A stretch of DNA of 64,000 nt, taken from positions 620,001 through 684,000 of the forward strand of contig JANFAH010000022.1 in the NCBI GenBank assembly GCA_024663395.1, written 5' to 3'. This DNA is from Pisolithus tinctorius (lineage: Eukaryota > Basidiomycota > Agaricomycetes > Boletales > Pisolithaceae). A program made the position numbers and the translations under genes. The stretch's first letter is position 1. Each line of letters starts with the position of its first letter. This document shows positions 5,629-62,649 of the stretch, in pieces. The notes under the pieces are model-generated. The model was given only the letters and a program-made list of their open reading frames with translations. It was not told the DNA's origin and ran no database searches.

Positions 5629-6802
5629 TCAGTGTCACACACCAAAGGTGTTGTGGACATGGTTACAGCTGACTCTGCCTAACTTGTTGACAAGTTGTGC
5701 ACAATGCCCATGCATGCAGATGAAGACTAAAGGCCTCATGTGTAGAAAGACTGCTGGACATTAACAGTCATCCTTCACACAAGAACAAGTTGTCAGTGCT
5801 AAAGAGAAAAGAGGAAGCAAGTTAAGTGCACATTAAAAGGTTTTTAGTGCCCATGTATGGCATTCTGGTTTTCATCATTGTGGGACACAACTTCTGGGAA
5901 GCATGTGACTAAAGTAAGGTTGAAGGGAAAATTGCCTAGGATCATCCCAAGGGGTGCTGCATGGAAGGAGAAGTCAAGAAAGGAACTAGAAGGTGGTGGG
6001 GGAATTCAAGCAAGAGCTGCAGAATTTAATTCTGGACAGATGTAGATGTGTGAGGAACAGCAAGATGGGTATATGAAATTCTGAGAAGCTGATATGTGCC
6101 AGGAGCAGTGTATTTGGAGTGTGGGGGATACAGGATAAGGTGTACAGGACTGGGGGATGCAAGAGACATGAAGACCACTGGAGATGCTGGAGATGCTGTA
6201 GACTCAATATATGCACTTAGACTCTGAAAACTTTCAAACTCGTAGAACACACACTGATGGCAACTCTAAAGGTGGGTGGTATATTTCTGACATCATGGCA
6301 GAATTATATAGTACAGGGAAAGTAGGTATGAGTTGGAGTAAGGTGGGGTGGAAAAACTAAAAGACTGGAAAATAAAGGAAAGGACATCAGACATCAGTGA
6401 AATACAGATGCACATGAAATAGTCCAGTGGTTAGTAGACAAGAGTAAGAACAGGACAATGGTAAGGGGTATCTTCCAACAGAATGAGAGTATGCATACAA
6501 GTGGGAGGTGGAGCTGAGTGGCACAGGAGGGCAGAGCATAGCATACTGGCACAAAGTCCAGCTTGCAGAATTTAGGGCGACAGGGGAAACTGGAGTTTTT
6601 TAGAGGTAAGTGGCATGGATGACTGGTGGCATGGCTACTGAATTCCAGATGACTCTGTGCAAATGAGGAATTTCTGGATCAGTGTTTTGATGATTGAGCA
6701 ACATGTGGAAGGTTGGTAGAAACCCTGAAGGTGACAGGGGTTGGGAGGAAACACAGACACAAGTGGGAAAAATTCCGAAATGGGTTTGTTGTAGAGGCCT
6801 GC

Positions 6803-7252
6803 TGTTATGCTCAACTGAAGTCAAGGTGTAGGGAGAGCTCAAACACAGTCTAAGGTTTCTACTGAGCAACAGCTGCAGTAACCTTCATAAACAACGAAGG
6901 ATTTAGGCAATGCTGGTAAGAGTGGTCCTGGTTAGGGACACTGAGGGTGAAGTTCTGAAGAATGCTGCATATGATTGAGCAGCTCAAGTCTGGGTTTCCA
7001 GGACTTGAGCCAGCAGTCTAAATACTACACAAGAACAGACCATGAGGTGTCTGCATGTAAATGAGGTAACTACACCATTGGTTGAACAATGATGACACAT
7101 GTCTGAAGCATGTTATGAGAATGTATCACTAGTGGTGGAAATAGAGAGCCATCAGATCAGAGGGAAGACAGCTCTAAATGGAAAAGATGTCCAACGGATC
7201 AAACACAAGGTAAACGTACAGTAAAAGGAAAAGCTAGGGGTGAAACGTAACA
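6803..7252 (-). repeat. A1 3' LTR
   Basis: A 450-bp LTR ending GTAACA, followed inwards by the purine tract GAAAGGGGG (read on the minus strand). It differs from the partner LTR at 25106 at roughly twenty sites, many of them TG in one copy and CA in the other. Confidence 0.9.
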
Positions 7253-9661
7253 CTACCCCCTTTCTAAGCATTGAAGTCTCTGACTTCAACTATTCTCCAT
7301 AAGGCTCTCCAGTCATATTGCTGATGGCAGAGTCATCAAAGTCAAAATCATTGTCGTACAGATCATTATCCTCACTCCCAACAAGGGTATGATCATCCAC
7401 CACAGCAGGGGTGGCAATTCTGTCCTGTAAAGGATGACAGGGGCATAACAAAGGACATTGGGCTTGAGTATGCCCAGGACGAGTAGCATGGCAGAGGGGA
7501 CATTCATAGAGTCCACAGTTGACACAAATGTGGCCAAGATGACAGCAGATGTAACATGTCTGGCAATAGCGAGGGTCAGATGGAGTAAGTGGCCTGTCAA
7601 ACTCGGTCATAGTGTTCAGCACAGGGGAAGGAGGTAACTGTGTGAGGGTTTCGACGATGTTTAACATGTAGTCGAGTTCAGCACAGGAAATGCCAAAGGC
7701 AGTTTTGGGATCCACCTCAGACAGAGAGTCATGAGATTCACAGGGTTGGGGATCGGGGCCTGACAGGCAACAGGCATGGGGTCTATCAGCTCTTCGAAGA
7801 GAGCAAGAGGAGTGGGAGGAATGGGAGGACGATGATGGCAATGACACCAGGGGGGAAGAAGACATGGAGGAAACTGGGGGAGATGTTTCAGTCAATGGCC
7901 TTTGAGAGCCAGGAGGAGGGGGTGCAATCAACATAGGGTATTGACGAATGTTAAAAATGAGGTCTGCACCTCCAAGGACATCAAAAAGTTTAAGGAGCAG
8001 GGGAACCTGCTGGACAGTGATTTCATTTAAGATGGTATGTGCTGGGGACAGCAAAGGGTTCTGGCAGTTGATGTATTGGGAAAGTTCCTCAAGCCAGAGG
8101 GCTTGGATAGTGGCGTGATATACAAGATCAAGGGGAGAGTTTTCATCTACTTCATGGTAGATGGTGCCGATGACAGCAGGGTCAGCGATGAAGAGTTGAT
8201 AAGAGGCGATCATTTGATCGCTAGCAGGCTGTTGTTGACGACAAGCAAAGGGGGTGTGGCAATGAGAGGGTTCATGAGGGTAAGTGTAGCGATGAGGGGG
8301 CATTTCGAGAGTGACATTTCTGACAGTACAGGTGGAGCGTCGAGTGGGTTGTTTCTGAGGGGGGAAGTCTTTTGGGAATTGTTTCTTATATGCAGAGAGC
8401 ATATCATCCATGTGTTCAAGGTGTTTCTTTCTGCCATGAGTTTTTGGAAGAAGGGTAACCCTTCCATTTGATTAAGAAGGCGTGTCCATGGCTGGACCTT
8501 TTATGGCCAACTATTGCTTCTACCTTGTACTCTTCTTCTTTGTTGATAAGGTCAGGCAGGGGAGTTGGGAAGTTTGGTCCATGGATGTCATTTTTGTGAT
8601 AGGGCAATAAGAGGGAAGTGTGGAAGATGTTATGAATCTTCCATTGTGCAGGAATTGTGAGGCAATACGTGATCGGAGATAGGATGTCAGAGATGGTGAA
8701 GGGTCCTTCTCGTTTTGGTGTGAGCTTCCTATTTTCATAGGAGCATTTCAAATTTTGGGCTTCCAGCCAAACCTTATCACCTTTTTGGAAAGGGGTGAAG
8801 GGTCGTGATGAGTGGTCTTTCATAGTTTTTTGAGCTAGGTCATGTGCTGTGAGGGCTTCCTCTCTAGCTTTTCAGAGTTCCTTGAGTCTAGACTTGGTGG
8901 TGGGAAGGTGGGTGTCCGCAATCAGGGACAGAAGAGGTTTTGGTTCATACCTGTACATGAGGTAGAATGGTGATTGTTGAGTGACAGAATGAGGTTGGTG
9001 ATTATGTGCAAACTCTGCCATTGGGAGATTGTCCACCCACAAGGCAGGGTCATTCTGGCAAAAGATGTGGAGATAGGTGTCCACTTCTTGGTTCACTCAT
9101 TCTGTTTCTCCATCAGTTTGAGGGTGGTATGCTGTTGACAATGCGAGGGAATATTCCAAAAGGGAAGCAAGTTCTTTTGTGAATGCAAAGGTGAACTGAG
9201 GGCCTCGATCTGATATGATTTTGTCATACAACCTGAAGTGGGAGTAGACTTTCTTGAAAAAGAGTGCTGCAATGTTGGCAGTGGATGCAGTTTTCTTTGT
9301 TGGTGTTAAAATTACCCCCTTTGTAAGCCCATGGTCTACCATGACCAAGAGGGAATCATAACCCTTTGAAAGGGGTAGGTCAGTAACCAGATCGTAAGAG
9401 ATCTGTTGGAAGGGTCAGGTCATGGTGGAGGGGATGGGTGTAAGGGGAGGTGTTGTCAGGTGGGTGTTAACTTTATTCTGCTGGCATGTAGCACAGCCTT
9501 CAACATATTTTCAGATGAAGGACACAAGTCTGGGCCACCAGAACTTGGAAGAGACAAGTTGATGGGTTTTCAAGACACCAGGGTGTCCAGCAGAGGGGTG
9601 GTCATGGTGATTGGATACAACCATCTGTCAGAGGGTAGGATCATCAGGAATGTATACCCAG
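7253..9661 (-). pseudogene. A1 pol, C-terminal part (integrase core, chromodomain, zinc-knuckle tail)
   Basis: Continuation of A1 pol beyond the B insertion. Integrase core landmarks are the segment reading DRGPQF (about 9.2 kb) and YHPQTDGETE (about 9.1 kb); then come the GPF-type module (KREGPFTISD), a chromodomain (YKVEAIVGHKR, FLIKWKGYPSSKNSW), and a tail of about 370 residues with CYICCHLGHICVNC and an acidic end. The frame is broken near 8.41, 8.83 and 9.1 kb. The tail frame 7290-8411 is the longest intact piece. Confidence 0.85.
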
Positions 9662-11461
9662 TGTGAGTCAAAGTGTGGACTGCTGGTATAAACCAAACAA
9701 ATCCAACACCAAAGACAAATAAAGTGCGAGTGGTGGTTTGCCTCCATGGAACCTGGAGTGCAGAAACCTAAGAGGGGGAAACTTCAATGGGAGGGTGCTC
9801 CTAGCACAAGTCGTTGACGAGTTATGCAGGAGAGGATGAATGAATGCTGATTGAGAAGGGGATGCTGAACAAAGCAGGGGTGTTCAGCCGAAAGGACTTG
9901 GGAGTAATAGACTTTGATAGAATATGCTCCTGGCACAAGTCAATGACGAGTTATGCAGGAGTGGAAGAATGACTAAGCAAGAGGTTGCTGACTAAGAGGA
10001 AGCTTCAGATGAATGATGGAGGCAGATAGACTCTTCTGAATGAGCCTCAACTGTCGACGACAAGATATGCTGAGCTGAGCTGACTTCTGGATTGCTTCTG
10101 ATTGCTTCCTGGTAGCTAAGTACACAGGGGTTTATATACTGTGGGGGGAGCACAGCTTGTGACAAACAAGGCACAAACACTTGGTAAGTAATGAGTAAGG
10201 ACTGGGTAATCATGATGAGTAAGTGAGAAATGAAAAGTAAGCAAGCAAAGAAGATTGGTAAGTATTGGCAATGAATGAGTCAAGGATAGTCAAAATATCA
10301 CAAAAAAAGTCAAATAGAATCAGAAACTGAGTAAGCGCACTGATATCACATTAGGGGGTGGCGATGCAAGTTAGATCTCAGCAGAGACATCTCTAGATCC
10401 AAAGACAGCATGACAGATGGATGGTGTTTCCAGATAGGGAAATATTAACTCCAGAATTGAAGGGCATGAGTCAGATGTCAAAAGGGGCTAGGGCATTGGG
10501 GGTCTGTGGGGCAATGAGAGCATATGCAATTGCATCTCCCACCCTTTCATCCTCTCAGCGAAGTTAGCAAAAACTTCATGAATGGGGCTCTGATGGAGGA
10601 GGAGGAGGAGAAGGAGGGACGTCTTCTGCTGGATCTTGCAGTAGGAAGGCAAGATGCATGTCATACTCATCATGAATGCGATCAGGGAGGCTGGAGAACA
10701 GTAGACCATACTGCAGCTGTCGCAATGCAGGAAGAATGATGGACAAGACTGGAATAAAGACAGTGCAGGGAGCAGGGAGGAATGATCCATATGCTTCATC
10801 AACTGGGGAGACTGAAACAACCACATAAGACCTTTCTAACTGAGTGACAGACCTGAGGCGACCAAAGAATGTCCTTCTGGAAGTCATACTGACAAGGAGA
10901 ACACGCTGACCAAGCTGCATGGGATGAGATGGGGCTGACAACAACAGGATGAACCAGGGGGCTTCAGGATGGAAGCTGGTGGGAACGCCTGGCAGATATA
11001 TGTAGCCACTGTCTCTGGCAAATGAGACAAGTGAGATGATCGATGAAGAGGTGGCCATGATTGATGGACTTAGCGAAATGAGCATCTGATGGATGGAGTG
11101 CTGTAGAAATGTGCAGGGTGTGGGGATCCTCTCCAAATTTGGAAGGAAGAATCGTGGGGCTGAGCACTTTAGGCGAGTGTGGGAATGGAGTCGATATCTT
11201 CAGAAATGGTGGAGATATGATGAAAACCAGAATGCTGTACACGGGTGCTAAAAACCTGTAATGTGCGCTTAACTCGCTTCCTCTTTTCTCTTTAGCACTG
11301 AAGACTCGTTCTTGTGTGAAGGATGACTGTTCACGTCCAACAGTCTTTCTACGCATGAGGCCTTTAGTCTTCATCTGCGTGCCTGGGCATTGTGTGCAAC
11401 TTGTCAACGAGTTAGGCAGAGTCAGCTGTAACCATGTCCACAACACCTTTGGTGTGTGACA
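9662..11461 (-). repeat. B 3' LTR, 1.8 kb
   Basis: Long LTR of the full B element. It contains a frame of about 160 codons in U3 (ATG..TGA, 11058 down to about 10578), a TATA box (TATATAAA on the minus strand, near 10.13 kb) and three copies of the palindromic motif described under findings. Confidence 0.88.
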
Positions 11462-11591
11462 TCCACTGGCAAGAAGAAATGCAATCATCCCCAATTGTGA
11501 CCAAGCAGGGAACCCAGGGAAAACAAAAGAAAAATGAAGGAAGGAATGACAGGCAATCAGTATCATAACAAATGAAAAAGACATGAAAAGA

Positions 11592-12419
11592 TCATGAATA
11601 GTCGTCTGAGTCGTAGTCATTATCGTTATTGGTGTCTTTGTTTTCATCATTTGTTTCATCTTCATCATCGTCATCATCATCACTGTTGTCATCGTTACTG
11701 CTGTTATTATCCTCTTCTTCATCTCTTTCTTCTTCCATAATGCTGGGTAAGGGAGTGTGGCAAGAATAATAAGGAATGAGTCGAAATGCTGCGACACCTT
11801 GAGCAGAAACGGTGCCATTGAGTTCTTTAAGGACATAGGAGCCTCCCTTGGTGCGACAAATGACCTCATAGGGACCAAGGTAGTGTGGCTTTGACTTGCG
11901 ATCCAGTTCTTTCTCTATCTGCATGTTGTGAACCAATACCAAATCTCCTGGCTCATAAGCTGACTTCATCAACCGTAAAGCATACCTCTTCTCAAACTGA
12001 CCCTTGGAGTGTAAACGAGACTTCTGTAATGTAGCGAAAGTGGCACTGATATCTTCTTCTCTCCTTTCCAACTGATGAATGCGAAGTGCGAGAAGCTCTT
12101 GAGACGACATTCCAGAGTAGAATCCTTCAACCAGATAGGTAGACTCAAAGAGATCAAAAGGCAGGACAGGATCAAGACCATGTAGCAGGAAGTAGGGGCT
12201 GAATCCAGTGGAGTGACGAGTAGTGACCTTGTCTGCAAAGAACGCATGATGGACCTTGGATGGCCAAAGGGAAAGATCTCCTTCACAAGCCTTGATGATA
12301 GCCTCTCTGATAACAAAGTGACCATGTTCCACAACTCCATTTGCCCTGGAATTATATGGGGAGATGTGAATCTGAGGAATGGAGTAGTGCTTCATGAGTT
12401 TCTCAAAGGTGCCCTTCAC
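11592..12419 (-). pseudogene. B integrase core end and C-terminal acidic tail
   Basis: Second half of the B integrase. It continues the frame above after a single TGA at 12555-12557 (AARDDLS expected). Core landmarks are VVTDNGSE just upstream and the VVEHGH segment carrying the catalytic Glu. Then come the GPY-type module (LGPYEVICRTKGGSYVLKEL) and, instead of a chromodomain, about 50 residues made almost only of Asp, Glu, Asn and Ser, ending DYDSDDYS. The TAG at 11592 is taken as the natural end of pol. Confidence 0.8.
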
Positions 12420-12554
12420 CTCACTGCCATTATCAGTGACAACCTGGGCAATAACACCATAATGACAGAAGACCTCCTCCCAGAAGAACTTAGCAAGACT
12501 GTCTGCATTGGCATGACGAAGAGCATGACCTTCTGCAGCGAGGGAAAGATCATC

Positions 12555-13778
12555 TCAAGCTGCAACAAGATAGCGATAACCACCTGCTTTGGGCATGAGC
12601 ATGATGTCGACGTAGACCTTCATAAAGACTCTTGGGGAAGCAGAAATGGTGATGGGAACCTCTGCTTTACAAGTGCTTCGGATCTGGCATTCATGGCAAG
12701 AGTGGACATGACAGGCGACATCTTGGTACATCTGAGGCCAGTAAAAGCGCTGTCTGACCATATGAAAGACTCCAAAGACTCCACGATGACTGAGTTCTTC
12801 ATGAGCATGACCAAGGATCTGGACATGGAGATGGGGATCGAAAATGACCTTGGCTGGAGGATGGGGACCTCGACGTTTAAAGAGCTGGTCTCCACGAAGG
12901 AAGAACTGGAGGGATCTGCGAATGAAGTGCTTGTGAGCAGTATTGGAAGGGAACAGATGAAGTTCTGTAGTATGAAGGAAGTGTAGGACTCGACATAAAA
13001 GGACATCCTGAGATGTATCATTGGAAAGGAACGAAGGGAGGGTAATGGCATATGCGGACTCGTGCGCAAGTCGTCGACGAGTTGTGCAAACTGAAGATGG
13101 ATGGGCATCTGTGAAAAGAAAACCCTCCAACCACTCATCAGCTTCTTCTGCATCAGCTTCACCTTCTTCATACTCTTCCTCTGTAGGTTGATGTCTGGAA
13201 AGGGCATCTGGGGCTTGGTGATGAACAGCAGGGACATGAATGAGCTTAAAGTCAAAGAGAAGTATACCCTCGATCCAGCAATTGACAGTAGCATTAGGTT
13301 GAAGATCTGGATCATTGAGCATACCTTTGATGTACTTCACATCAACCTCTACCCATAGATGATGAACACCATAGAGATATAGACAGTAGTGATGAAGTGC
13401 TCTGAAGAGACCATAGAGCTCAAGCTTAGGCTGACTGTAGCAAGACTCATGTTCATTGATGGGGAGTGAGCCATAGTGAGCAGGATGTTTGCGACCTTCT
13501 TCATCATACTGAGAGAGAATGAATCCAATGGCGATGTTACTGGTGTCAACAGAAAGAATGACTGGCAGGTCAGATGAGTAGTCAATGGGGCGAAGGGCAG
13601 GAGCAGATGAGATGGCAAGCTTCAAGGCATCAAACGCATCTTGCTGGGGCTGACCCCAAATGAACGGAGCATTCTTGTGATAAAGGTCAACGAGTGGGTG
13701 AGCCAACTGCAAGTAGTTCGCAATCCAGATACAAACAGTACCACAGAGACCTAGGAATGAGTGAACATCTTTGGGCAT
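12555..13778 (-). pseudogene. B RNase H and integrase N-terminus
   Basis: Frame of 407 codons, with an RNase H-type region (VILSVDTSNIAIGFILSQYD) and the integrase zinc-binding region (HAHEELSHRG .. CHECQ). It is continuous with RT but separated from it by a solo G LTR at 13779-14248. Without the insert the join reads LTTPKDVHSFLG in frame. One copy of the palindrome motif (13063-13088) is embedded here in coding sequence. Confidence 0.85.
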
Positions 13779-14248
13779 TGTAGGGAATGAGTTCGAGTTC
13801 CCTAGGAGAAGCAGTCTGGGTCATGAGTTCAGGGGTGGAGAGTTTTCTTTTGTTTTATTTCCTTCTTTTGTTTTTTTTGCATGGTACCACTGGACTTAGT
13901 GGCGAGCAGCTGCGTTGCTGACTAAGCGCATGTGCTGTGTTCGTGCGAGTTCAGTTTACACAACAACCAGTACATGTCACAGGCCCTCAGTAGTAGGGTG
14001 ATCTAGTCTCGCATTTTGGCAAGTGTTCAAAGTTAGATTTATTGCTTTGGGGAGTACCCAAAGTGCCAGGAGGACTGGCAGGGGTTATTAGACAGACAGA
14101 GCTAAGTTTTCCATTTGAGTTCGCATTTTTACACTTTTCACTACACTTTTGTTTCTCCAAAACAGGACCTCCCTTTTGGGTTGAGCACTAAACTTGCCCA
14201 TTACTGACTATTACTATTTCTAGGTACTTCTTTTTACCTATTCCTACA
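13779..14248. mobile_element. Solo LTR, family G (copy G1), in B pol
   Basis: A 470-bp block, TGTAGGG .. TTCCTACA, reverse-complement homologous to 62166-62627. The flanks are GCAT (13775-13778) and GCGT (14249-14252), i.e. a 4-bp duplication GCGT with one CpG decayed. It is the innermost level of the nest. Excision restores the B pol frame. Confidence 0.88.
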
Positions 14249-17200
14249 GCGTAGTGAGCATTGGCCAGTTGACGACCTTCTTCACCTTGTGGTCGTCAGG
14301 AGAGCGACCATGAAGATGGCATGCTTGACCAAGAATGACAACACGAGGCTGGCAGATCTGAGATTTCAAGCCAGAAAACATTCTGCCAGCATGAGCAAAC
14401 CAATGCATGACTCTATGCACATCTACAGCATGTTCCCAAATGAAGTGATGTATGCCAGGATTCTTGGGTAACGTTTCAGCATTGCCATCGGCATCTTCAT
14501 AGCAGGTCGCAGGGCCTTTGGCTGGCAGATCGTCGATGAAAACATTGGCAATGTGAGGGACTTCATCCTGTAGAATAAATGCTGTACAATTCTGAAACTC
14601 CAATGGTGAGTTGGTGTAGCCTTGAGGCATGGCAGTATGGCACAGTAAGCCAAGAGGCGTCATGAAGGATGTCAGATCTTGGCTATCGGGATGGAGTTGG
14701 CATGCATCAAATCCTGAAAATAGATCAAAGACTGTGTAGCATTGACAACCAGCAAATGGCTCCACAAAGTCATCCAGGATTGGTGGAACACCAGCATCTT
14801 GAATTGTAACCTTATTCAGAGGCTGTAGATCATGAATGATATGGATCTTGCCATTCTTTTTCATAACACAGAACCATTTGGAGCGATAGGATGATTGGGC
14901 CGGCTCATAGAGACCAGCAGCAATCTTCTCCTGAAGAAGCTGTATGACACATTCTCGTATGCCAGGGGGAATTGGAATGTTATGAAACTCCCATGGTTCG
15001 TGTGGCAGGACAGGAATGATGTAAGGCAAAAAGTAGTCTGAATGAAAGTTTCCTCTCTCCAACTCATCAAACGCCAAGGCATGCTCATTAAGCTTCATGA
15101 CATGCGAAAAAAGTTTTTCCTCTTCTGGCCAGAGAAAGCCATCAGCATTAATCTTCATGGAGGTAAGGCGCTCTTGAGTAAGCTTCCTTGTGGGAATGAA
15201 CACAGGAGGGTGACATGTGAGAGGTGTGAGTGATGCGAGGGGGTCTTCTGGAAACTGGTGATGGACCCAAGCATCTTCTGGATAGACTCCAGGCACTGGC
15301 TTGACTTTACGATCGATGCGCTTGTATGCTCCATACACTGGCTGACCTGTTTCATTGGCTGAGTCTTCTGTATCCATAGCAAGGCCTTTTCTAGAGTGTA
15401 ACAAATCAAGAAAGTCAGACAGAGAATAGTAAAAATGAAGCTGTTTTTCAGTTTTCTGAATAGGAAGGGGATCTGGTGCTTTTGAAGGATTAGATAACGA
15501 AGAAGAGAAGACATCAAGATAAAAAGAGCTCTGGAAGCTTGAAACTGAAGGAGGCATAGTAAGTGATGTTACAGGAGTATCTGAGCAAAGAAATGATATC
15601 TGTGGGTTTAGGAGTTTAACGACTTCTTGGTCGAAGTGAGCAGATGAAGAACAAGAACAACTATAAGTACAAGAGGGGAAATACAAATCAATCTTCAAAG
15701 AGCTGGAGAAATAAATGATGAGATATGGGAGAAAGTGGAGGAACACATCTGAGAAGATCATTGGACCTGTCTTGAGCTGAACCTGAGGAAGTGGAAGCAG
15801 GAAAGTGGTCTGGGTATGAAACCACTTCGAAAGGGGGAGGATGAGCTGAGGCTGAGGCAAAACTGACTGCACTGGCAAGGATATGAAGACTGGAGTTTGG
15901 GAATGCACCTGTGTCCTCTTCATCCACATCACCTGAATGGTCTTCTGCAGCTTCCTGCAAATGAGCAATCCATCCAGTAGGGGTACAACACATGACAACA
16001 TTGCTGTAAGGCTCTGGCATGGCAACTGACTCTTTGCCAACAGCAGCATTAGACATGGCTTGGGGAGCTGAGGGTAGTAATGGCATAGGAAGAGCTGGAC
16101 TAGATGAATGCTGATGCCTGCATAAGTCGTCGTCAAGTTGTGCAGACTGAAGCAAGGATGGGCTAGGCAGATAGAAGCGAGAGCCAATACTAGTGTTGAA
16201 CATATCAGAGTCGAGTGGCAAAAGTGTGGTGGGTATATCTGGGGATAGACTGGACAAGTGGTGAGACATGCACAACTCATCAACGAGTTGTGTGGACTGA
16301 GAGTCACGACCTATATCTGAGGATGAACCAGGCAACTGCACATGGCTGCACAAGTCATCATTGAGTTGTGCAGACTGATGATGGGTGGATGGACTGGGTG
16401 CATATGGATCCCTGCACAACTCGTCGTCGAGTTGTGTGGACTGAGAGTCATATGGGAAGTAGGGGCAACTGAACTGCAGTAGGAAGTATTGAAGATGGAG
16501 AATGTAGCTTCAGAGTCTGGAGTGACAGTGTCTCTACAGAACAGAAGTGAAGCCTGGTGGGAACCATTGGTGGGCTCTTCTTGAATGATAACCAGATCTG
16601 GGGATGGGGGAGAGGGAGTCTGAGGCAGAGCAGTAACACCATTAGAAAGTACACGTGAAGCAGGTAGACTCGAGTCAGATGGCAGGTCTGGAGGTGGAGA
16701 TGCATTGCTCTGAGTGGGAGATGCCTGTGGGAGTAGACAAGGATAGAACCTGACATAGGCAGAACCTTCAAGCTCATGGTAATGCTCAAGTGGGGCAGGA
16801 ACCTGTCGGACTAAGTGAACATCAAGCATAAGGAAGTCTTGGAAGTAGACTCCTGATTCATCAGTACCTCTTTCTCCAGCAAGTGCATGGTTTGAGTTGA
16901 GATAAAGGGAGGACAGATGGGGAGTGCGATGAGCAAGGCTAGTAAGAAGTGAGACAAGTGACTGGCGCTCTTCTCTTCTGATCTGGCGATGAATCTGGGA
17001 AAGGGTAGGATTATCCTCCAGTCCACTCACATCAGTGGACTGTAACTCCTGGGTAAGCTGACCAACAAACTCCGAAGGAAAGGGACTGGTAGGAGGTGGG
17101 AATGCTGGGACAGGAATGGGATGGAATGCAGGAAAGGCCGAGGCAACATCAAACCCATCTGGGGGCGATTCAGGATACAGCAGAGTAGAATCGAGTGACT

Positions 17201-17603
17201 GAGGGGGTGACTGTGAAGTTGATGGGGGTGGAGCGAAGACCATAGGTGAGACATGATGAGGGGTACCAACTGCTACATCTCTCATAGGTTCATTGGCTTC
17301 TTGCTGAGAATGGACAGGCTCTAGAGTCACCATAAGGGTATCTGCAACAGATCCAAGCTGGCCTTCAGTAACACACATCTCCAGGGGGCAATCTGAATCA
17401 GCTCCAAAGACAACATAAGTTCCAGACTCTCTTTCAACAATGCTAACTGAGTTCCCAAGAGCCCAAGGACGACCAAGGAGGAGATCAAAGCCTGCATTAG
17501 TGTCTGGGGCAACAAATAGATTGGTCCAAGTCTTGGCAGCACCACAGAAGAGAGGGACATCCTGTACCAGACCTTTCAGAGTAGAGATACCTCCTTTTGC
17601 ATC
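14249..17603 (-). pseudogene. B protease-to-RT region
   Basis: After the protease, pol runs through a low-complexity Ser/Pro-rich linker (15.6-17.3 kb) into RT. RT landmarks are FCVMKKNGKIHIIHDLQPLN, VFDLFSGFDACQL, the catalytic motif read as FIDD (14529-14540) followed by LPAKGP, and the thumb/connection. FIDD in place of YxDD occurs in one fungal Ty3/gypsy clade. The linker holds four degenerate units around QLDDELC that coincide with copies of the palindrome. The linker frames overlap and shift near 15.5, 16.4 and 17.4 kb, so the exact path is uncertain. Confidence 0.7.
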
Positions 17604-19608
17604 TCACATATTGATGGTCTGTGACATATCAATGGGCATGCAAATGACCAACTGGGCTATACCAGCACAAACAACATTGAGGGTAGATCCAGAGTCAATG
17701 ACACCTGTTACACGACGACCATTGCAAGTCAGATTGATAGTGATGAGGGGGCTAGAAGTCAAGGCCAAGTAGGAGGATGCAGGAGGAGTTCCTTCAACAG
17801 CAGTAACAGACTTGACTGGCTGAGCCAGGGGCTGTCTCTTGAATCGCATAAGCTCCTGAAGGTGCTGAGAAACATCCCTAGATGATCCAATGACCTCCCC
17901 AACAGATACAGTCAAGGGAGTAGAAAGAATGCGCTCTACAATGGCTTTAGAGTGGGCAGACTGTGAAAGCGATGAAGACAGGGAAGTGGTAGGAGGGGGC
18001 TTGGATTTCTTAGACCTGTCTGCAGAATCAGTGGCTTGACCAGATGGCTTTGGGACAGAGGCATCTTCCATGATAGCATCATCTCTAGTACCATCAAAGA
18101 CAGTGGGATGGATGTCAACTGGTACAAAGGCAGGAGCAAGTGGTACTTTCTGTGGAGCAGGGATGGATGCAGAGGATGAAGGCTTTGGACCCTGACTCTC
18201 TTTCTCCTTGCCATGCGAACGAGGTGGGACAAGGACACTGTCAAAGACAGCCTTTCTCTTCTCTTTAGTAACCTTGTTAGAGCGATCCACAGCAGCAACA
18301 AGGGGTTCTTCTTCCAACTCGTAGATCTCGGCACTAGACTCTTCTTCGGCCTCTTCATGGATAACAAAGCGAACTGCATTGGCAGGCTGAGCAGCAGCTT
18401 TAGTGCACTCATAGGCTTGAAGGATAGTCTCTTCTCCATTCTGATAAATGCGCTGTCCATTAGGGTAGATGACCCGATGGTTTTCATCATGTGCCAAAGA
18501 ACCCTTCTGAATGAGATCATTAATGGCCTGACAACTCTCAACACCATGGCCTTCAACACCACAGCCATAACAAGTGATGGTCCTCCTAGCAGGACAGGTC
18601 TGGGATGAGGAAGTAGCAGCAGGGGCAGTGGATGCAGGAGTAGATGCAGGAGCAGGACGAAGGGAAGGAGCACGAAGCACCTTTGCAGCATCAGGATCCA
18701 TCTTGATAGCACGATAGTAGAGGAGGGAGTAGTCTGGGTCATTGAGTGACATGTGAGAGAGGGACTTGATTAGGGTCTCAACTTCATCCTGTAGGACCTT
18801 CTTTCTCCAAATTTTCAAGGTTTCTTCTGGCTTCATGGGAAGGGAGCAGAGGGAAAACACTGTCATCTCTTCCATCTGAGTGATGAGTAGCATTAGGCTG
18901 GGCCTGAGGAGCAGGGGCAGCACAAGGGCCAAGGAAGTCAAGGTCATCTGCATCAAAGCGATCATGGCGAAGGACCTCTTCAGCTGACTGGCATACATCA
19001 TCATAGGGGAATGGCCTGCTAATGTCAAGGTTGGGATCCTTTGTCCTGAGACGAGTTTCAACCAAGCCATGAAAGACTGGGGACAAACCAGCCCAGAAGT
19101 AGCAATTATATTCATCAACTGAGATCCTTCCTTTATTCTTCAACCAACCTCCAATGCGAATGAAGCCACGGTTGTAAGCCCTAAAGTCTTGAAGAGTCAT
19201 GATGGGCTGCATCCTAGACTCCAAAGCAAAGCTCTTGAGATGCCTTTCAAAGAACCTTTCATCTGATAGATCAGCATCAAAGTACTTGAGGAGATCAGCC
19301 TTCAAGTTAGCCCAATCAGGAGTGTAGTAGTGAGCCATTCCTTCAATAATCTCCCTAACACAAGCATTGCAGTACTGGAGGATTGACTTGACCATTTCCT
19401 GGTCAGAAGTAACATTGTGGTAGGCACAGAGACGTTCATAGTGGTCCAAGAAGGAGTGAACATGGGTATGGTCTCCTTGGAATAATTCAGGGGCAGACTT
19501 CATGCCAAGCAAGGGCATAGTGAGGACAGAGTGAGCAGGGGGAGCAGCCATAGCTGCTGGAACTGTTGATGATGTAGGGGGATAGATAGTGGGGATGGTG
19601 GATGACAT
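17604..19608 (-). pseudogene. B gag and protease
   Basis: Gag starts at ATG 19608 (MSSTIPTIYPP) and contains the capsid-like region (LFQGDHTHVHSFLDHYERL, YFDADLSDERFFERHL). Near 18.84 kb the frame shifts; the continuing frame carries a CX2CX4HX4C zinc knuckle (CYGCGVEGHGVESC, about 18.56 kb), a long charged linker, and an aspartic protease segment GVIDSGSTLNVV (about 17.7 kb). A TGA at 17604-17606 replaces Arg in NMRDAKGG. The shift could be programmed or mutational; no clear slippery heptamer was found. Confidence 0.8.
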
Positions 19609-19712: not shown

Positions 19713-19714
19713 GA

Positions 19715-21561: not shown

Positions 21562-21565
21562 CCAG

Positions 21566-47757: not shown

Positions 47758-47759
47758 TT

Positions 47760-48956: not shown

Positions 48957-49480
48957 TGTCAAGTACGGGGTTTCCAGGTTGAGGCTGGACCGGAGACTGA
49001 AGTGGGTGTGAGGCCAAGGGATTGGAGTCAGGGGTAAAGACAAAGGTACAGATGGGTGGACTGGTTGGACTTAGCGACTGAGGATACAGTGCTATTCCCT
49101 TGCGTGAGTCTCAGTCCGAGTCCGAGGCCGAGACGAGGTTATCAGGGTTAACTTAGTTGATTTCAGACTAAGGAGTACAGGCTGAGTATCTACGAGTTTA
49201 TATACCAGAAGTAACTATAGTACGGAGACTGGTAATGCCGGTCTCACAAGGATTGCTAAGATGATTGGTAAGGCAAGGATTACTAACGTATGACTAAGGT
49301 AGTGGAGACTGGGACAGGTGGACCGGAGACAGGACCAGGCAGGACTTAGCCGAAGTGACAGACACTGCAAAGCAGTGTCTACCGCACTAGACCAACTGGA
49401 GATACGGGATTGGCAAGGCCGAGGCCAGACTGAGTGAGCGCGAGGCCGAGTCTGGCCAGAGTTGAGGCACAACTATGACA
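48957..49480 (-). repeat. F 3' LTR
   Basis: 524 bp, TGTCAAG .. TATGACA; differs from the partner at about 25 positions by eye, mostly C/T and G/A. Confidence 0.93.
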
Positions 49481-49600
49481 GTATCCCCCTCTTAGGGGTT
49501 GAACCCATGAGACCCCTGCGAGAGTGGTAGGCTGAGTTTGAAAAAATGATACTTGTGGCTCGCTAAGCCCTTTGCATCTTTCTTTCTCATCCTAACCATC

Positions 49601-50671
49601 ATGTCTGAACTGAGGCTGTCCACCGCAATTGACAACAATGACAAAGGCCGGGTCGTCATCGATTGGACCCAGGTGTCGGATGATGCCATCCGATATGACA
49701 CTGACGACGAGGAGGAGACGATGAGGGCAAAGGCCAAGGAGAGGAAGAGACGAAAGGTGGCTGAACAAGCCTGGTGGGAGGAACAGGCGCAGCTTGAGAC
49801 CGAAAGGGTGGCGAGGGAGCAGGCCGAAGCCAAGAGGGCAGCACAGGAGAGGGCTGAGGCCGAGGCCGAGGAGAAGAAGGTGTGCAAAGAGGAGGAGAAA
49901 CGGGAGGCCGAGCATAAGCGTAAGGCCGGGGCCGGCAAAGGTGATGAGGCCAGTACTAGTGGTGAGGCCAGGGGTGAAGTGAAACGGGTGGTAATGGACC
50001 CTGGGTGAGTATATTTTTGATCTGGTGCGCGTTTTTCTTCTAACCTCCTTTTCAGCTGTACTTGCTGCGCCCGCGCTCAAGTCATCTGCGAGTTTGTCGT
50101 AGACAGCAACAAGAAGCGCGTCGCCTGCATGCGATGCAATCAGTCGAAAGGTAAATGCTGGTGGCCTGGGGATGGCAAGGAAGCCAAGGCCGGTCCCAAG
50201 ATTAAGGCCGACAAAGGGAAGAAGCGGAAGGCTGACGAAGAGACGCCAGAGCCTGGGCCGAGCCAGAAGAAGCAGGCGAAGATGAGTGCGAGGCCAATCG
50301 AGGTCTTGGATCTCGATGAGACCGAGGCCGGTGGGAGTGGAGTGAAGGAGGCCGGCACGGCTAGATACTCGGGCTTGGAGGGCAAGCTCGAGTGATTGAT
50401 CGAGGCCGTGGGGCTGATTGCCAACAACTTGGCCAGCCTCTTCGAACTTCACGAGACCGTGGTCGAAAACTCAGGCCACATCGCCGACACTCTCGAGTCG
50501 TTACTCGATGAATCGTACCGCTTCGGAATGGCGGTGTCCCCCTCGGAATCGGGCTCATCTGAGCTTGATTCCGAAGAGTTGCATGAGGAGGCCGAGTGGT
50601 TGCAGACACACAGCGAAGATGATGAGGAAGAGTCCGAAGGGGAGGATGAGGCCATGGCCAAGACCGAGTAG
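49601..50671 (+). CDS. Antisense accessory gene of element F: Cys-rich, coiled-coil, acidic protein
   Basis: Two exons, 49601-50004 and 50056-50671, with a 51-bp GTGAGT..TTTCAG intron; together 1,020 in-frame nucleotides. Exon 1 encodes a start MSELRLSTAID and a long charged helix rich in Ala, Glu, Arg (likely coiled coil). Exon 2 begins with a Cys cluster (GCTCCARAQVIC, then VACMRCNQSKGKCWWPG), resembling basidiomycete predicted proteins with the same CxxC arrangement, followed by a Lys-rich stretch and an acidic C-terminus. A single TGA at 50393-50395 stands where Arg is expected. It lies between pol and the 3' LTR, opposite to gag-pol. Role unknown; a nucleic-acid-binding or regulatory function is only a guess. 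Confidence 0.7.
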
Positions 50672-50853
50672 TACCTTAGCATAGTGCTCCTGTTGTTCCT
50701 CCTGCAAAAATCATGTCCGGTGTCCAACGTCCGGTTTCGGTCTTGTATAGTAAGTGAAACAGAAGAAAGGGAAAACAAGGTAAGTAAGAGATCAAAGAAA
50801 GCTAGATACTGATAGAAAACAGAAAAGAAACTGAGGCCGGTTGAGACCAGTCC

Positions 50854-53800
50854 TCATTGGTATGGGCCGGGTTTACCGGGATAGCTGGAGTGAAACTCTT
50901 GGACAAGTTCAGAAGCATTGTCAAGCTCTGTAGCGAGTACCCAAGTGGTGTCTTCATCGGTCCCCTCGTAGCCGGTCCACCGGACTAAGTACTGAAGCCA
51001 ACACTGGCGACGCCGGTCGACCTTAGAGTCGAGGATTTCTGCTACCTTGAACTCTAGGTCACCATCGACTTCGACTGGTGGGGGTGGTGGTTGAGTCCGG
51101 TTCGGGATGGTATTAGGGATGGCCGGCTCGAGCTGGGACACGTGGAAGACCGGGTGGACTGCGCGCATGGAGTCTGGCAGGCGCAGTGTGAATGAATGAG
51201 TACCGGCCTGAGCTATGACTGGGTACGGTCCAAGGTTTTTCTCCGAGAGCTTCTTGGAAGGCTGGGTAGACCAGAAGTATTTGGCTTTGACATATACTTG
51301 GTCACCAACCTTGAAGTCCAGAGCCGGCATGCATTTGGCATCGGCCAGTCCTTGATAGCGCTGCTGTGCTAAGGTCATTTCTTCCCGTAGGTATTGATGC
51401 AGTGAGTCTAAGTCGACTGCATAGTCACGAGCCCGAGTGGAAGTGAGGTCACGCTCCAGGTACACCGAGATGTTAGGGTGGTAGCCCTTATTGGCAAAGA
51501 AGGGTGAAACGCCAGTGGTAGCGCTAGGGGCATTATTATAAGCAAACTCGGCCAAGGGTAATAGGTCGGCCCAGTTGTCCTGTTGGTAGTTACAGTAGAC
51601 TCAGAGGTACTGTTCCAGTGTCTGGTTGGTCCTTTCGGTCTGGCCATCACCCTCAGGGTGATAGCCCGAGGTGAAGTGTAGGTGCATATCTAAGGCCTTG
51701 CCGAGTGACCGGAAGAAGTGTGAGACAAACTCCGAGCCTCGGTCTGAGGTTACATGGGCCGGCACTCCGTGCTTCGAAAAGACATGGAGTAGGAATAACT
51801 TGGCGAGTTCTGGGGCTGTGATAGTGTCATGGGTTGGGATGAATATGGCCTGCTTGGAGAGCCGGTCAACTACTACTAGGATGGCCGTGAAGCCGGTTGA
51901 GGCCAGAAGTTGCTCAATGAAATCCATAGAGATGGAATTCCATGGTTTCTCTGGCACCGGAAGTTGCTTGAGGAGGCTGTATGGCCAATGGCGGGGAACC
52001 TTAGCCCAAGTGCAGGCCATGCAAGACTGGACATAGTCTTTGACGAATGTCCTGAGGCTGGGCCAGGTATACTCACGCCGAATGAGTTCTAAAGTGCAGT
52101 TTTGGCTGAAGTGGCCGGACAGAGGGTGGTCATGCTTAAGGTGCAAGACCCTAAGGCGGAGATCATTTGAGTCCAGCACATAGATCCTTCCATCAAGCCG
52201 AAGGAAGCCGGTGTCATCTACTGACCACCAGGGATCTGATATGTCAGACAGGCGGATTTGTGAGACCGGGTCGTCTGGCAGTGCGGTCAGGATATCATTA
52301 TGAAGCTTCTCTATATCCATCAGTGCAACTGCTCGTAAGACCGGGTACTCGAGGTAGGTTGCGCAAAGGGAGACCGCTAGTTGCTCTTGGGTGAAGACCA
52401 GTCTCAAGTTCTGTGGGTTCACTTGGGCATAGCTGCTATCCCCCTCTTTGGGGTAGGCATCCCATCGTCTAGTTAGGGCGTCGGGCTTAGCCCCGAGCTT
52501 ACCGGGCCTGAACCTGATGATCATATTGAATTGAGACAGGAATTCAGACCAGCGAGCTTGGCGGTGGGTGAGTACTTTGGAGGTAGAGAAGTACTCGAGA
52601 TTCTTGTGGTCGGTAGCAATGTCGACCGGTGAGGCCGAGCCCTCAAGGTAATGGCGCCAGGTCCAGAATGCTTCAAAGATTGCAAGCAGTTCCTTATCGT
52701 GGGTATCATAATTCAATTCCGGGGCCGTCAAGGTCCGAGAGTAGAAAGCGACCAGATGAATCTGGCCGTTGCCGCAAGTAATAGACAGAATGCTGGCGAT
52801 GGCGTAGTCCGATGCATCGGTCTCGATGGTGATAGGGACCCCAGGGATGAAATGAGTTAGGACCAGCGCAGTGGTGAAGGCGGCCTTGAGGTTGTTGAAT
52901 GACCAGCGGCACTCCTCGGAGAAGTTCCAAGGAGCCCCCTTGCGGGTAAGCCGAGTCAGCGGTATGACGATGTCCGAGTAATTAAAGATAGAGTGGCGGT
53001 AGAAATTGGCAAAGCTGAGGAAGGATTGGATGTCCTTGACCTTGCGAGGCTCAGGCCAGTCACAGATGGTCTGGACCTTTTCCTTGGACATTGTGAGGCC
53101 GGCAGGGGAAAGGTGGAATCCGAGGTATTCAACCGAGTCCGAGTGGAACTCGCATTTCTCTGGCTTCGCATAAAGGCCGTGAAGCCAAAGCCAGTGGAGG
53201 ACTTCTCAGACATGCTGCTTGTGAGACTCCTTATCTCCAGAGTAGATTAGGATGTCATCTAAGTAGACGACCATGCAGACATCTAACATATCTGCGAAGA
53301 TAGTGTTGACGAAGCGCTGGAAGGCGGCCGGGGCATTGGTGAGGCCAAAAGGCATCACTAACCACTCGTAGGATCCATACTGAGTCCGGAATGCGGTCTT
53401 CCATTCATCGCCCGGGGCAATCCGGACGAGGTGGTAGGCATGCCGAAGGTCAATTTTAGTATAGATCTTGGCTCAGCTTGGTGAATCCAAGAGGTCGGAG
53501 ATGAGCGGTAGCGGGTATCGGTCCTTCTTAGTGATTTTATTCAGGCCGTGGAAGTCTATGCACAGCCGGAGGGAGCTGTCCTTCTTTTTGACAAAGAGGA
53601 CTGGTGCAGCATAAGGGGAGGAGGTAGGCCGAATGAAACTGGTAGTAAGGTTTTCATCGATGAAGGTCCGGAGAGCTTGCAGCTCAACTGGGGACAGCGA
53701 GTAGATGGTGCCTAATGGCAGGGTTGTCCCTTCTTCGAGCTCTATCTTCAGGTCATACTCCCGGTGTGGTGGGAGTGCCGAGGCCTTGGCCTTGCTGAAT

Positions 53801-54509
53801 ACATCAGCGAAGTCGTGGTACTCTTCCAGTACATTGGGTAAGGCCAGAGGAAGAGAAGCCAAGGCTGATTGGGCTTGAGCTGAGTCCGAGGGGCGGAGCT
53901 GAAGTTGGAACTGGATGGATCCTTCTAGTTTGCAGGCACGCATGAAAGCGGCTGCATTGATTAGGGAAACAAGAGGGGCCTTCAGAGGGGTGCGAGCCGG
54001 GGAGTCGGAGACCGGTACAGATGGCACGAGGCCGGGTTGGTCACTAGGACTGGGGTCAGGAAGGCCGGTGGAGACCAGGCTTACAGGGGGTGTCGACAGG
54101 GTTGGCATTCCTCATGCAGGAGTCCGGAATGTTAGACTGCTCAGTACCCAGTCAATCAACAGATTGTAGCGGGTGAGCCAGTCATGTCCGAAACTATCTT
54201 ACACTCGGAATCCAATGGGGCTAAAAACAGGGTTACCGGTGTGACATCGCCGGACGCGAAGTGAATGTTGACATCTACTGCTTGGGTTATGGTGAAGGTG
54301 GACGTTCCATCGAAAAGCCGGAGTCGGATTGGTGAGACCGAGTAAGGGGTAAATGAACGTTGATTAGCAAATTGATTATCTATGAAACAGTGCGTGGAAC
54401 CGGAGTCCACTAAAGTACGAAGCCAAGGTAAATCTGGGTTTTCTAATGTGACATAGGGGGTTAAAGAGTTCGGACTGGAAAGAGCGGATGCGTTGAGATG
54501 AGCCTCCAA
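50854..54509 (-). pseudogene. F protease, RT, RNase H, integrase and chromodomain
   Basis: Protease LVDSGSTHCFID (about 54.4 kb), reached by a -1 shift from gag. [27 protein letters not shown] at 53254-53265, [15 protein letters not shown]. RNase H: TIETDASDYAIAS. Integrase: zinc finger HDHPLSGHFSQ .. CMACTWAK, core MDFIEQL, VTSDRGSEF, GDGQTERTNQ. C-terminal chromodomain FKVAEILDSKV .. YLVRWTGYEGTDEDTTW (51.0 kb), ending at 50854. Broken by a frameshift near 54.2 kb and TGA at 54112, 53473, 53206 and 51601, each at an expected Arg. Confidence 0.9.
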
Positions 54510-54530
54510 GTTTGCACAACCGGAGTCAAC

Positions 54531-54578
54531 GCAGCTCCCAGATTGTGCGGAGTCCTGGGAGCTGCTACCTATTTTTTT
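54531..54578 (-). promoter_or_regulatory. -1 programmed frameshift signal at the F gag-protease junction
   Basis: On the minus strand gag ends ACA AAA AAA TAG: the canonical heptamer A AAA AAA (54572-54578) directly before the stop. A 6-nt spacer follows, then a perfect 11-bp stem (54555-54565 pairing with 54531-54541) with a 13-nt loop. A -1 shift enters a frame that stays open into the protease. Confidence 0.85.
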
Positions 54579-55945
54579 GTCTCAGGGGTAGAACCCAAGC
54601 CCGAGGCCAGTGTGGCCTCGGTGGTAGCCGCAGTGCGAGCTTTGGCTTTTCTGGCTTTCTTAGGGCATTTGTCAGCAAAATGACCAGACCCTCTGCAGAA
54701 CATGCAGAGGTTTCCGTCTAGGCGACGCTTGTGTTCTTCTGGGGTAAGCTTTCCATCTTTGCTGAGTTTGCCAGGCTCGGGCTTAGATGAATTGCTGTTA
54801 CTATTGTTGCCCGGCTTAGGGGTAGAACCAGAGTTGTTATTGTTGCCAGTCTTGGATTTATCTTGACTGGTCTTAGGCTGGTTGTTATTGCCAGAACCTC
54901 CGGACTTGTTGTTACTAGAGTTGGACGAGCCTTGGTGCTTACTCGCCCACTGGACTTCTTCCTTGCACTCCCAATAGCGCACATCTATCTCCTGGGCGAG
55001 GTGGCGGAGCTCGTGAAGTGTCTGGGGTTTGCCAACTCGACAAACTTCGTCCTTAATCCGGTCTGGGAGTCTGGAGTAGAAGTGGTGGCGCAGCGCACCA
55101 TCTCCGTAGCCTCGGACTTGCGAAGCAAGCCGATTGAAGTCGACTATGTATTTATTGACGCGCTGGCTATCTTTCATGTGCAAGTGGTCGAGTTGACTTT
55201 CGGCGTCAGCAACCGGGTCATGGGGTCCGAAGGTGGTTTGCAATTCTAAGATGAACTCCCTCCAGGAGTCCATCCAGAGAGGCTGGTCATTGGGGTCATC
55301 GAGCCTGAGTAAGTCTGGCTCGAACCACTCTAAGGCCATGCCTTTGAGGTATGACTGGGCGAAGATGACCTTGGCGTGGTCGGTCCTGAAAGCCTGGGGT
55401 CGGTCTTGGAAGTTAAGTTCGCACTGGATGAAGAATGCGCGAAGCTTCTTGGGGTCGGTGCCATCAAAGGTGTCAGGCTCACGTAACTTGGTCCTACTTG
55501 AGGACTCAGGGGTAGTACGGGTGTTGCGAGCCAACAGCTTGATGGCCTTCGCGAGACTGTCGAAGACTGCGACCGCAGGTTCGGTGTCCGGGTCTGGGAA
55601 GTCCAGTTCATCCTCTGGATCATCCTCATCCAGATTATCGTCACCAGGCCCATCATCGCTGGGACCGTTGCCGGGGTCATCATTATCTGGGTTATTATCA
55701 TCATTGTCGCCCGGTCCATCATCACCGGGGTCACCCTCGGGGATGGGAGCAGTGGGACGACGTGGAGTGGGGGTATTGGATGTGTGGGCTGAAAAGCCCC
55801 TGAAAGGACTGACGGGGTCTGGGGAGCACCTAGTGGTGCCCAACGCAGCTAGAGCTGTTTCACGGCGAGCCCCACTGGCTGAAGCGGAGTCGGGATTGGT
55901 GGCAGAGCGGCCACAGGGAGGTTGGAAGCGAGTCTTGGTTGCCAT
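54569..55945 (-). CDS. F gag
   Basis: 458 codons from ATG 55945 (MATKTRFQPP) to TAG 54569. An N-terminal Pro/Asp/Gly-rich acidic stretch is followed by a capsid-like domain (KLREPDTFDGTDPKKLRAFF, FAQSYLKGMALEWFEPDL), an Asn/Ser/Gly-rich linker, and a zinc knuckle CMFCRGSGHFADKC near the end. No interruption; likely the best preserved element gene in the window. The stop is embedded in the frameshift signal. Confidence 0.9.
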   Translation of the reverse strand: MATKTRFQPPCGRSATNPDSASASGARRETALAALGTTRCSPDPVSPFRGFSAHTSNTPTPRRPTAPIPEGDPGDDGPGDNDDNNPDNDDPGNGPSDDGPGDDNLDEDDPEDELDFPDPDTEPAVAVFDSLAKAIKLLARNTRTTPESSSRTKLREPDTFDGTDPKKLRAFFIQCELNFQDRPQAFRTDHAKVIFAQSYLKGMALEWFEPDLLRLDDPNDQPLWMDSWREFILELQTTFGPHDPVADAESQLDHLHMKDSQRVNKYIVDFNRLASQVRGYGDGALRHHFYSRLPDRIKDEVCRVGKPQTLHELRHLAQEIDVRYWECKEEVQWASKHQGSSNSSNNKSGGSGNNNQPKTSQDKSKTGNNNNSGSTPKPGNNSNSNSSKPEPGKLSKDGKLTPEEHKRRLDGNLCMFCRGSGHFADKCPKKARKAKARTAATTEATLASGLGSTPETKK

Positions 55946-55971
55946 GATGTATTAGACCCACACAAGTGGCG

Positions 55972-55981
55972 AGTCTGAAAT
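55972..55981 (-). promoter_or_regulatory. F self-priming PBS
   Basis: The minus strand reads ATTTCAGACT, two bases inside the 5' LTR. The complement AGTCTGAAAT is in the LTR (minus strand of 56187-56196), about 35 bp downstream of TATATAAA (56224-56231), matching the expected transcript start. Confidence 0.7.
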
Positions 55982-55983
55982 AC

Positions 55984-56507
55984 TGTCAAGTACGGGGTTT
56001 CCGGGTTGAGGCTGGACCAGAGACTGAAGTGGGCACAAGGCCGAGGGATCAGAGTCAGGGGTAAAGACGAAGGTACAGATGGGTGGACTGGTTGGACTTA
56101 GCAACTGAGGATACAGTGCTATTCCCTTGCATGAGTCTCAGTCCGAGTCCGAGGCCAAGACGAGGTTATCAGGGTTAACTTAGTTGATTTCAGACTAAGG
56201 AGTACAGGCTGAGTATCTATGAGTTTATATACCAGAAGTAACTATAGTACGGAGACTGGTAATGCCGGTCTTGCAAGGATTGCTAAGATGATTGGTAAGG
56301 CAAGGATTACTAACGTATGACTAAGGTAGTGGAGACCGGGACAGGTGGACCAGAGACAGGACCGGGCAGGACTTAGCCGAAGTGACAGACACTGCAAAGC
56401 AGTGTCTACCACGCTAGACCAACTGGAGATATGGGATTGGCAAGGCCGAGGCCAGACTGAGTGAGCGCGAGGCCGAGTCTGGCCAGAGTCAAGGCATGAC
56501 TATGACA
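55984..56507 (-). repeat. F 5' LTR
   Basis: 524 bp, partner of 48957-49480. Confidence 0.93.
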
Positions 56508-56730
56508 CTTACATTGTTCACAATCATCCTTGTTGCTGGACATGTTCTGAAGGGCATGGGACAAATGCACATCCAAAGGGATATTAGGGGGGACAGCTGG
56601 TAGTGATGTTGAGAAGAGGTATGGTTGCACATAGATACAAACTTACATTGTTCACAATCATCCTCATCATTGGACACACTCTGGAGGCCACGGCGCAGAT
56701 GCGCATCTGAAGTGGTACTGGGGGGGACAG
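56508..56730 (-). repeat. Tandemly duplicated 84-bp exon plus 50-bp intron in gene H
   Basis: Exons 56647-56730 and 56513-56596 are both 84 bp (28 codons), start with a Ser-Val-Pro-Pro segment and end DDCEQ before GTAAGT; the introns are both 50 bp and similar. The preceding exon ends in a related DHCKQ. The unit is thus an intragenic exon duplication that keeps the frame. Confidence 0.8.
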
Positions 56731-61939: not shown

Positions 61940-62165
61940 AATATATTTCTCTGCATGCAGTCTTGGCAATTATGTAATACAATGTTTGGGCTGAATCATA
62001 ATCGATGAAATCATTTTTGGCTGAACCTTGATTCAAATTGTCCCAGATTCATATGCTCACTTTTTTCAGATAGTAACTTGATTCATCTCCATCCATGCCA
62101 TTTGCCTCCAGCAGACAGCTCTCTCTGTTCTTGTCATCACTTATCATGTCCTTGTTCCTGACCGT

Positions 62166-62627
62166 TGTAGGAATAGGTAAAATAGATATACCTATAATGG
62201 TAATAGTCAGTAATGGGCGAGTTTAGTGCTCGACCCAAAAGGGAGGTTCTCTCTGGAGAAAGAAGTGTAGTAAAAAAAGTAAAAAATGCGAACTAGAAAA
62301 AAGATACTTAGCTGTGCCTGTCTAATACTCTTGCCAGTCCTCCTGGCACTTTGGGTACTCCCCAAAGTAATAAATCTATCTTCGAAAACTCGCTGAAATG
62401 CGAGACTAAATCACCCTACTACTGAGGGCCTGTGACATGTACTTGTTGTTATGGTAAACTGAACTCGCGCGAACACAGCACACGCGCTTAGTCAGCGACA
62501 CGGCTGCTTGTCACCAAGTCCAGGGGTACAAACACAAAAACAAAGGCAAGAAATAAAACAAGTCCTTCCACCCCTAAACTCCTGACCAAGACGGATTCTC
62601 CTAGGGAACTCAAACTCGTTCCCTACA
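62166..62627. mobile_element. Solo LTR, family G (copy G2)
   Basis: A 462-bp block, TGTAGGAATAGG .. GTTCCCTACA, with a perfect 4-bp duplication CCGT (62162-62165, 62628-62631). It is inverted relative to G1 and retains more CpG. It separates the preceding gene's 3' flank from the next gene. Confidence 0.9.
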
Positions 62628-62649
62628 CCGTGCACTCATCTTGGCCTAT

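Follow-up and report, generated by a model that had tools for sequence, protein, structure and literature searches.

Three families of long terminal repeat elements in Pisolithus tinctorius probably insert at a central CG within a 4-bp target-site duplication

Insertions in the window and their target-site duplications

The DNA analysed here is a 64,000-nucleotide stretch of the Pisolithus tinctorius genome (contig JANFAH010000022.1, positions 620,001-684,000, from a 92.5 Mb genome in 221 contigs), which we refer to as the window and within which positions are counted from its first base. It contains insertions of long terminal repeat (LTR) elements, three families of which (B, C and G) appear to choose targets with the dinucleotide CG at their centre. 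All 11 insertions with duplications were re-read from the sequence: the six insertions of B, C and G are flanked by 4-bp duplications, and the five others (A1, A2, E, F and D) by 5-bp duplications (CCTGC, TAACA, TTCAC, TAGTC and CTTAC, respectively), with CG in 0/5 of the latter. An earlier note on this DNA had listed the same six 4-bp and five 5-bp duplications, and every letter of them was confirmed.

The insertions of the three families are partly nested. The outermost is a B solo LTR on the plus strand, with the left duplication TCAG (5629-5632), a left piece (5633-5878), a right piece (25619-27236) and the right duplication TTGG (27237-27240), the two pieces being split by an insertion of family C. 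The latter is itself a plus-strand solo LTR, flanked by TCAT (5875-5878) and TTGT (25615-25618) and split by A1 into a left piece (5879-6802) and a right piece (25561-25614). Within A1 lies the full-length B element on the minus strand (9662-21561), which has 1.8 kb LTRs (9662-11461 and 19715-21561) and the duplication CCAG on both sides (9658-9661 and 21562-21565). A second B solo LTR (38817-40669, within 38813-40673 including its duplications, plus strand) is flanked by CTGG and CCAG. The two G insertions are also solo LTRs: G1 (13779-14248, within 13775-14252, plus strand) is flanked by GCAT and GCGT, and G2 (62166-62627, within 62162-62631, minus strand) by CCGT on both sides. The earlier note had further given CTGG for the A2 site that matches the target of the full B element, a reading that is borne out here and that the note took to suggest CCGG, and had read the target of the C insertion as TCGT on the strength of other copies of the LTR it entered; uninserted B LTRs indeed read TCGT at 18 of 44 homologous places in the sampled sequence, with the TG or CA forms of it at the other 26.

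Target sites across the genome

Insertion sites of B were counted across all contigs from exact matches to the 19-base 5′ end of its LTR, of which there were 1,542 (782 + 760). The element's own internal motif GTGGA precedes 79 of these, which are therefore element-internal junctions, leaving 1,463 external ends; GTGGA-flanked ends fall outside the pyrimidine-purine (YR) set because they carry GG at the tested place. At the centre of the duplication (YRN in front of the LTR) 1,456 of the 1,463 external ends have a YR step, and in 466, or 32% of external ends, the CG itself is intact (CGN in front). The first 30 listed B loci, taken without selection, comprise 14 CG, 8 TG and 8 CA (two of them, L050 and L051, share one flank). 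Background frequencies in the sampled sequence are 2.6% for CG and 18.8% for CG, TG and CA together, so the chance probability of all 30 flanks falling in this class is ~2 × 10−22. A listing of 100 B ends, all on contig C1, consists of 95 YR-type ends and 5 internal junctions with no exceptions, and 100 listed YR-type rows are all CG, TG or CA, with TA absent. The proportion of internal to external ends also suggests that most surviving B copies are solo LTRs, at very roughly 17 solo to 1 full element if each full element yields one end of each kind.

The same class of sites flanks the other two families. For G, 30 loci were read individually out of 218 ends, 137 of which have a YR step in front of them genome-wide; 15 of the 5′ junctions are external and all are CG, TG or CA, whilst in the remaining 15 the LTR is preceded by the internal motif of the element. 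With 17 external 3′ junctions included (11 further 3′ junctions were internal, with TCTGG, and 2 were not located), all 32 external G flanks belong to the class (19 CG, 8 TG and 5 CA). Two G elements at L082-L085 each measure 6,634 bp between LTR starts, have the intact duplications CCGC/CCGC and GCGC/GCGC and share identical open frames near their LTRs; one such frame per side was scanned, with no Pfam match above the cut-off. Reading 25 of the 154 C ends gave CG, TG or CA in 5/5 of a first batch (two sharing a flank) and in 16/20 of a second. Four ends that share caaaA(YR)T, with centres TG (3) and TA (1), were set aside as probably internal, hence a count of 21/21.

The comparison elements are A1 (6798-25560, minus strand), A2 (41366-48214, minus strand), E (an apparently solo LTR that encloses A2, 40925-48485), F (also apparently a solo LTR, 2219-3152) and D (48952-56512, minus strand), with chromodomain integrases in A2 and D. 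Family A, which has a chromodomain and makes 5-bp duplications, served as the genome-wide control: CG was found at the corresponding place in 0/22 ends and YR in 10/22, a sample that includes some internal ends and five that share the flank letters CAG, and which is small, so that it shows the absence of the B pattern and is not a tight estimate. Family D gave 91 YR matches, which are uninformative because internal junctions with TAC at their end match the pattern too; its seven readable rows are 1 CG and 6 TA. The five family A ends with the CAG flank (on C3, C28, C38, C52 and C160) have identical 30-base LTR ends, and three of them lie 14-17 kb from the contig start, so they are perhaps duplicated chromosome ends.

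To describe the shape of the signal, 103 flanks were pooled; these are junction sides, with some insertions counted twice, and part of them come from loci that had been selected on CG (L009-L038). Beyond the four duplicated bases no position approaches the central bias. Within them, the first base is C in 54, G in 33, A in 12 and T in 4 flanks, against a background in which T precedes 36.5% of CG. Among the intact forms in B and G, CCGG is commonest, with GCGC, GCGG, CCGC and TCGG also present.

Decay of the central CG

CpG is depleted in the window (observed/expected 0.35) and TG and CA are in excess. Both sides of the duplication could be compared in 19 cases, six from the window, 12 from G and one from B (C1:1640826-1642677, GCGC/GTGC). 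CG is kept on at least one side in 12 of the 19, five pair TG with CA, and two have CA on both sides; of these two, one has uninserted homologues with CG and the other is matched in A2 by TG. The outer two bases agree between sides in 17/19 pairs.

Copies that have retained more CpG elsewhere also more often retain CG at the junction. Copies of C with 2-3 CpG in the first 31 LTR bases have CG in 12/12 cases and those with 0-1 in 0/9 (p = 3 × 10−6); a first split of the same family (10/10 vs. 2/11) had followed how the copies were picked and was replaced by this one. In G, the CpG-richest third has 9 CG and 1 CA, and the CpG-poorest third 2/10 CG (p = 0.002). Among unselected B LTRs, none of the CpG-poorest ten has CG, whilst the CpG-richest ten have 6 CG and 4 CA (p = 0.005). 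In B loci L039-L068, the decayed sites of the 20 CpG-richest LTRs are all CA (6), and the lowest 10 are mostly TG (8/10).

Uninserted homologues of the target provide a third comparison. In the 0.36 Mb sampled, 44 of the 103 distinct flanks have one: at least one homologue with CG was found for 27, homologues with TG or CA alone for 16 and another form for 1. As uninserted homologues carry CG at the exact place, CG was present in the target prior to insertion and was not brought by the element. Mismatched duplications, the split by CpG retention and the CG of uninserted homologues together indicate that TG and CA at the junctions are mainly decay products of CG.

The B element and its integrase

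On domain content, B is clearly a Ty3/Gypsy LTR element. Its two LTRs have TG...CA ends, and its domains are ordered RVT_1, RNase H, H2C2 and rve on the minus strand, to which all of the following frames belong. An open frame with DUF4100 (17607-19139) was the sole match when the upstream frames were scanned with Pfam for Gag. It is followed by a frame with the reverse transcriptase domain (14247-16310), by RNase H and the H2C2 zinc domain of the integrase (12555-13817), and by a piece with the end of the DDE core, a GPY motif (LGPY) and an acidic tail before the stop (11595-12554). In this last piece rve is the sole Pfam match. The scan found no chromodomain in B, as the earlier note had stated, whilst A and D each carry one.

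A search for relatives of the B integrase returned 397 matches, and the 120 listed include proteins of Serpula lacrymans, Somion occarium, Trametes sanguinea and Agrocybe chaxingu, all from genera of Agaricomycetes. A GPY or GPF motif is present in 19 aligned relatives, and no chromodomain was found in the four scanned with Pfam. A profile built from the B piece and these 19 relatives, compared with the PDB, matched the integrase of prototype foamy virus (PFV) best (E = 6 × 10−23), followed by that of Ty3 (E = 7 × 10−20). B and G also agree over 21 bases adjoining the 5′ LTR, TCTGGAGCCCACCGCGAGGGG (window 19690-19714, minus strand; also L073, L082, L085 and others), and probably use the same priming tRNA, given these shared bases.

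Elsewhere in the window, an open frame at 3100-3819 matches NPHP3_N (E = 5.9 × 10−10), tandem repeats spaced at 44 and 21 bases are densely packed in 32394-34230, and a 339-codon open frame lies on the plus strand at 33440-34459. The region 28000-31000, judged by eye only, looks like a decayed stretch of Helitron helicase. Scans of the window with Rfam and for tRNA genes gave no matches.

Interpretation and alternative explanations

Essentially all external junctions of the three families carry CG, TG or CA, uninserted sites carry CG, the duplications are 4 bp long and the central CG decays. The explanation that very probably accounts for this is that B, C and G integrate with a 4-bp stagger at sites that need, or almost need, a central CG, which CpG deamination later hides. 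The earlier note had proposed from six insertions that the integrases select CpG with this stagger, and the proposal is upheld by the count over many copies, by the uniform CG of the CpG-rich C copies and by the absence of CG in the family A control. The integration complex would cut the target with a 4-bp stagger, accepting a site solely, or nearly so, when CG occupies its two central base pairs; the bases outside this CG would preferably be C or G, with T on its 5′ side nearly excluded. Gap repair would then yield an NCGN duplication. Deamination would later act on its two sides separately, changing CG to TG or CA, masking the rule and making the duplications appear mismatched. The integrase itself would presumably read the site: the sharply bent target in a 4-bp-stagger intasome probably needs a flexible YR step at its centre, and the clade may have gained base contacts that demand C:G pairs at this step. 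One related integrase clade may serve all three families, the integrase being known from B alone.

Several observations weigh against this explanation. For B, its weakest point is the four CA sites among the ten CpG-richest LTRs, which mean either that CpG retention is a poor clock in this family or that some sites were CA originally. Seven external B ends (1,463 minus 1,456) are unexplained and non-YR by subtraction; the genome-wide YR counts include TA, the absence of which covers the 100 listed rows; and intact CG is found in just the 32% of external B ends given above, so that for many copies the CG has to be deduced. An outer base is mismatched in 2/19 paired duplications, the homologue reads AAGT in 1/44 uninserted comparisons, and the flank set used for uninserted sites includes the CG-selected loci L009-L038. 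Three G frames had no Pfam match above the cut-off and no integrase was recognised in the G pieces; if G indeed has none, it may borrow one.

A putative alternative is that the integrase or a partner needs 5-methyl-CpG and not simply CG, so that the elements target DNA already methylated by the host; we regard this as possible but rather doubtful. CpG methylation is indicated by the CpG depletion of the window (0.35) and by the decay of the sites to TG/CA, and a homologue within 0.36 Mb for 44/103 junction flanks means that many targets are repeats. In another mushroom, Marasmius oreades, the mean share of methylated reads per CpG in repeats is 0.75-0.76 (PMC9674265). However, the decay reflects methylation after insertion and not before, and an insertion may also persist more readily in a repeat than in a gene. 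The decay suggests that insertion sites are methylated once occupied. Lentiviral integration is described in a review as disfavoured in regions with CpG methylation (PMC3185549). It is a slightly more doubtful proposition, likewise putative, that 5-methylcytosine in the CG is recognised by the integrase itself, the silencing mark of the host thereby serving, base by base, as the address for insertion instead of the chromodomain of the chromovirus neighbours. If true, nested insertion into silenced repeats would be self-reinforcing.

It is improbable that the integrase merely prefers flexible YR centres (CG, TG and CA) without requiring CG. TG and CA are common at B junctions, CA occupies 4/10 of the most CpG-rich B LTRs as described, and in retroviruses with 4-bp duplications central YR averages 63% above a 22% background (PMC4422553). 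Yet the CpG-rich C copies are CG in 12/12 cases, and the TG and CA on opposite sides of 5/19 paired duplications are simply explained by an original CG. TA, which is also a YR step, is absent from the 100 listed B rows, and CG makes up 32% of the YR ends of B (466/1,456) against 11% of background YR.

The constant distance from the CG to the LTR end would also fit a CG that is part of the element ends, with a true target duplication that is shorter or absent, but the chance of this is negligible: uninserted homologues carry NCGN at the same place (for example, a G insertion at L096/L097 compared with the window), which excludes it, and bases 1 and 4 differ among insertions whilst agreeing between sides in nearly all pairs. 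Insertion into CpG-rich DNA, with CG as a by-product of composition, can be dismissed with equal assurance, as no point was found in its favour, the signal is restricted to the duplicated bases, a single-position signal that excludes it, and the 56 bp beyond the duplications have a CpG observed/expected of 0.39, close to that of the window (0.35).

Comparison with known systems

LTR elements are usually far less strict in their choice of target than this CG rule, and retroviral integrases are described as favouring weakly conserved sites (PMC4422553). An LTR element dependent on a central CG in its duplication would provide a natural example of strict target readout by an integrase related to that of PFV, and the question of whether integrases read DNA methylation becomes directly testable. 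There is also a warning for annotation, as filters that demand identical duplications would drop such elements: true insertions are lost because CpG decay mismatches their duplications, 5/19 of which differ at both central bases. A literature search aimed at CpG-specific or 4-bp insertion, which covered titles, the openings of abstracts and excerpts of PMC9674265 and PMC4122921 and left subscription papers and preprints mostly outside, brought up no LTR retrotransposon that follows a CG rule; excerpts of PMC12440569 (Troyka) and PMC12730594 (TET transposons) contained no CG-specific LTR case either.

The same genome also has the chromoviruses A and D, which share with B the LTRs and a Ty3/Gypsy-type reverse transcriptase or RNase H plus integrase. 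They differ in having a chromodomain, which B lacks, and in making duplications in the window that are 5 bp long and without CG. Among retroviruses, PFV, Moloney murine leukaemia virus (MoMLV), porcine endogenous retrovirus (PERV) and xenotropic murine leukaemia virus-related virus (XMRV) share the 4-bp stagger and the central YR step, and with them T is disfavoured at the first base of the duplication and A at the last (PMC4422553); PFV, a 4-bp-stagger enzyme by the same account, is also the best PDB match of the B-type integrase profile. The retroviral preference is, however, statistical, whereas in B almost every external end has the YR step and the sites point to CG.

The closest likeness at the target is to Ginger1 (Bao et al. 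2010, PMC2836005), whose 4-bp duplications also have a central CG, being CCGG in 75% and CCGT/ACGG in 24% of cases, with a logo drawn from 112 Hydra elements. According to that paper, Ginger1 also resembles B in its Gypsy-like integrase with H2C2, DDE and GPY/F, and its ends read TGTNR. Ginger1 elements are, however, DNA transposons with terminal inverted repeats, reported in that paper from four animal species, whereas those described here are fungal LTR elements, B having a reverse transcriptase; B, C and G are therefore not Ginger1, though alike at the target. The outer context is also broader than that given for Ginger1, as GCGC, GCGG, CCGC and TCGG are used here as well.

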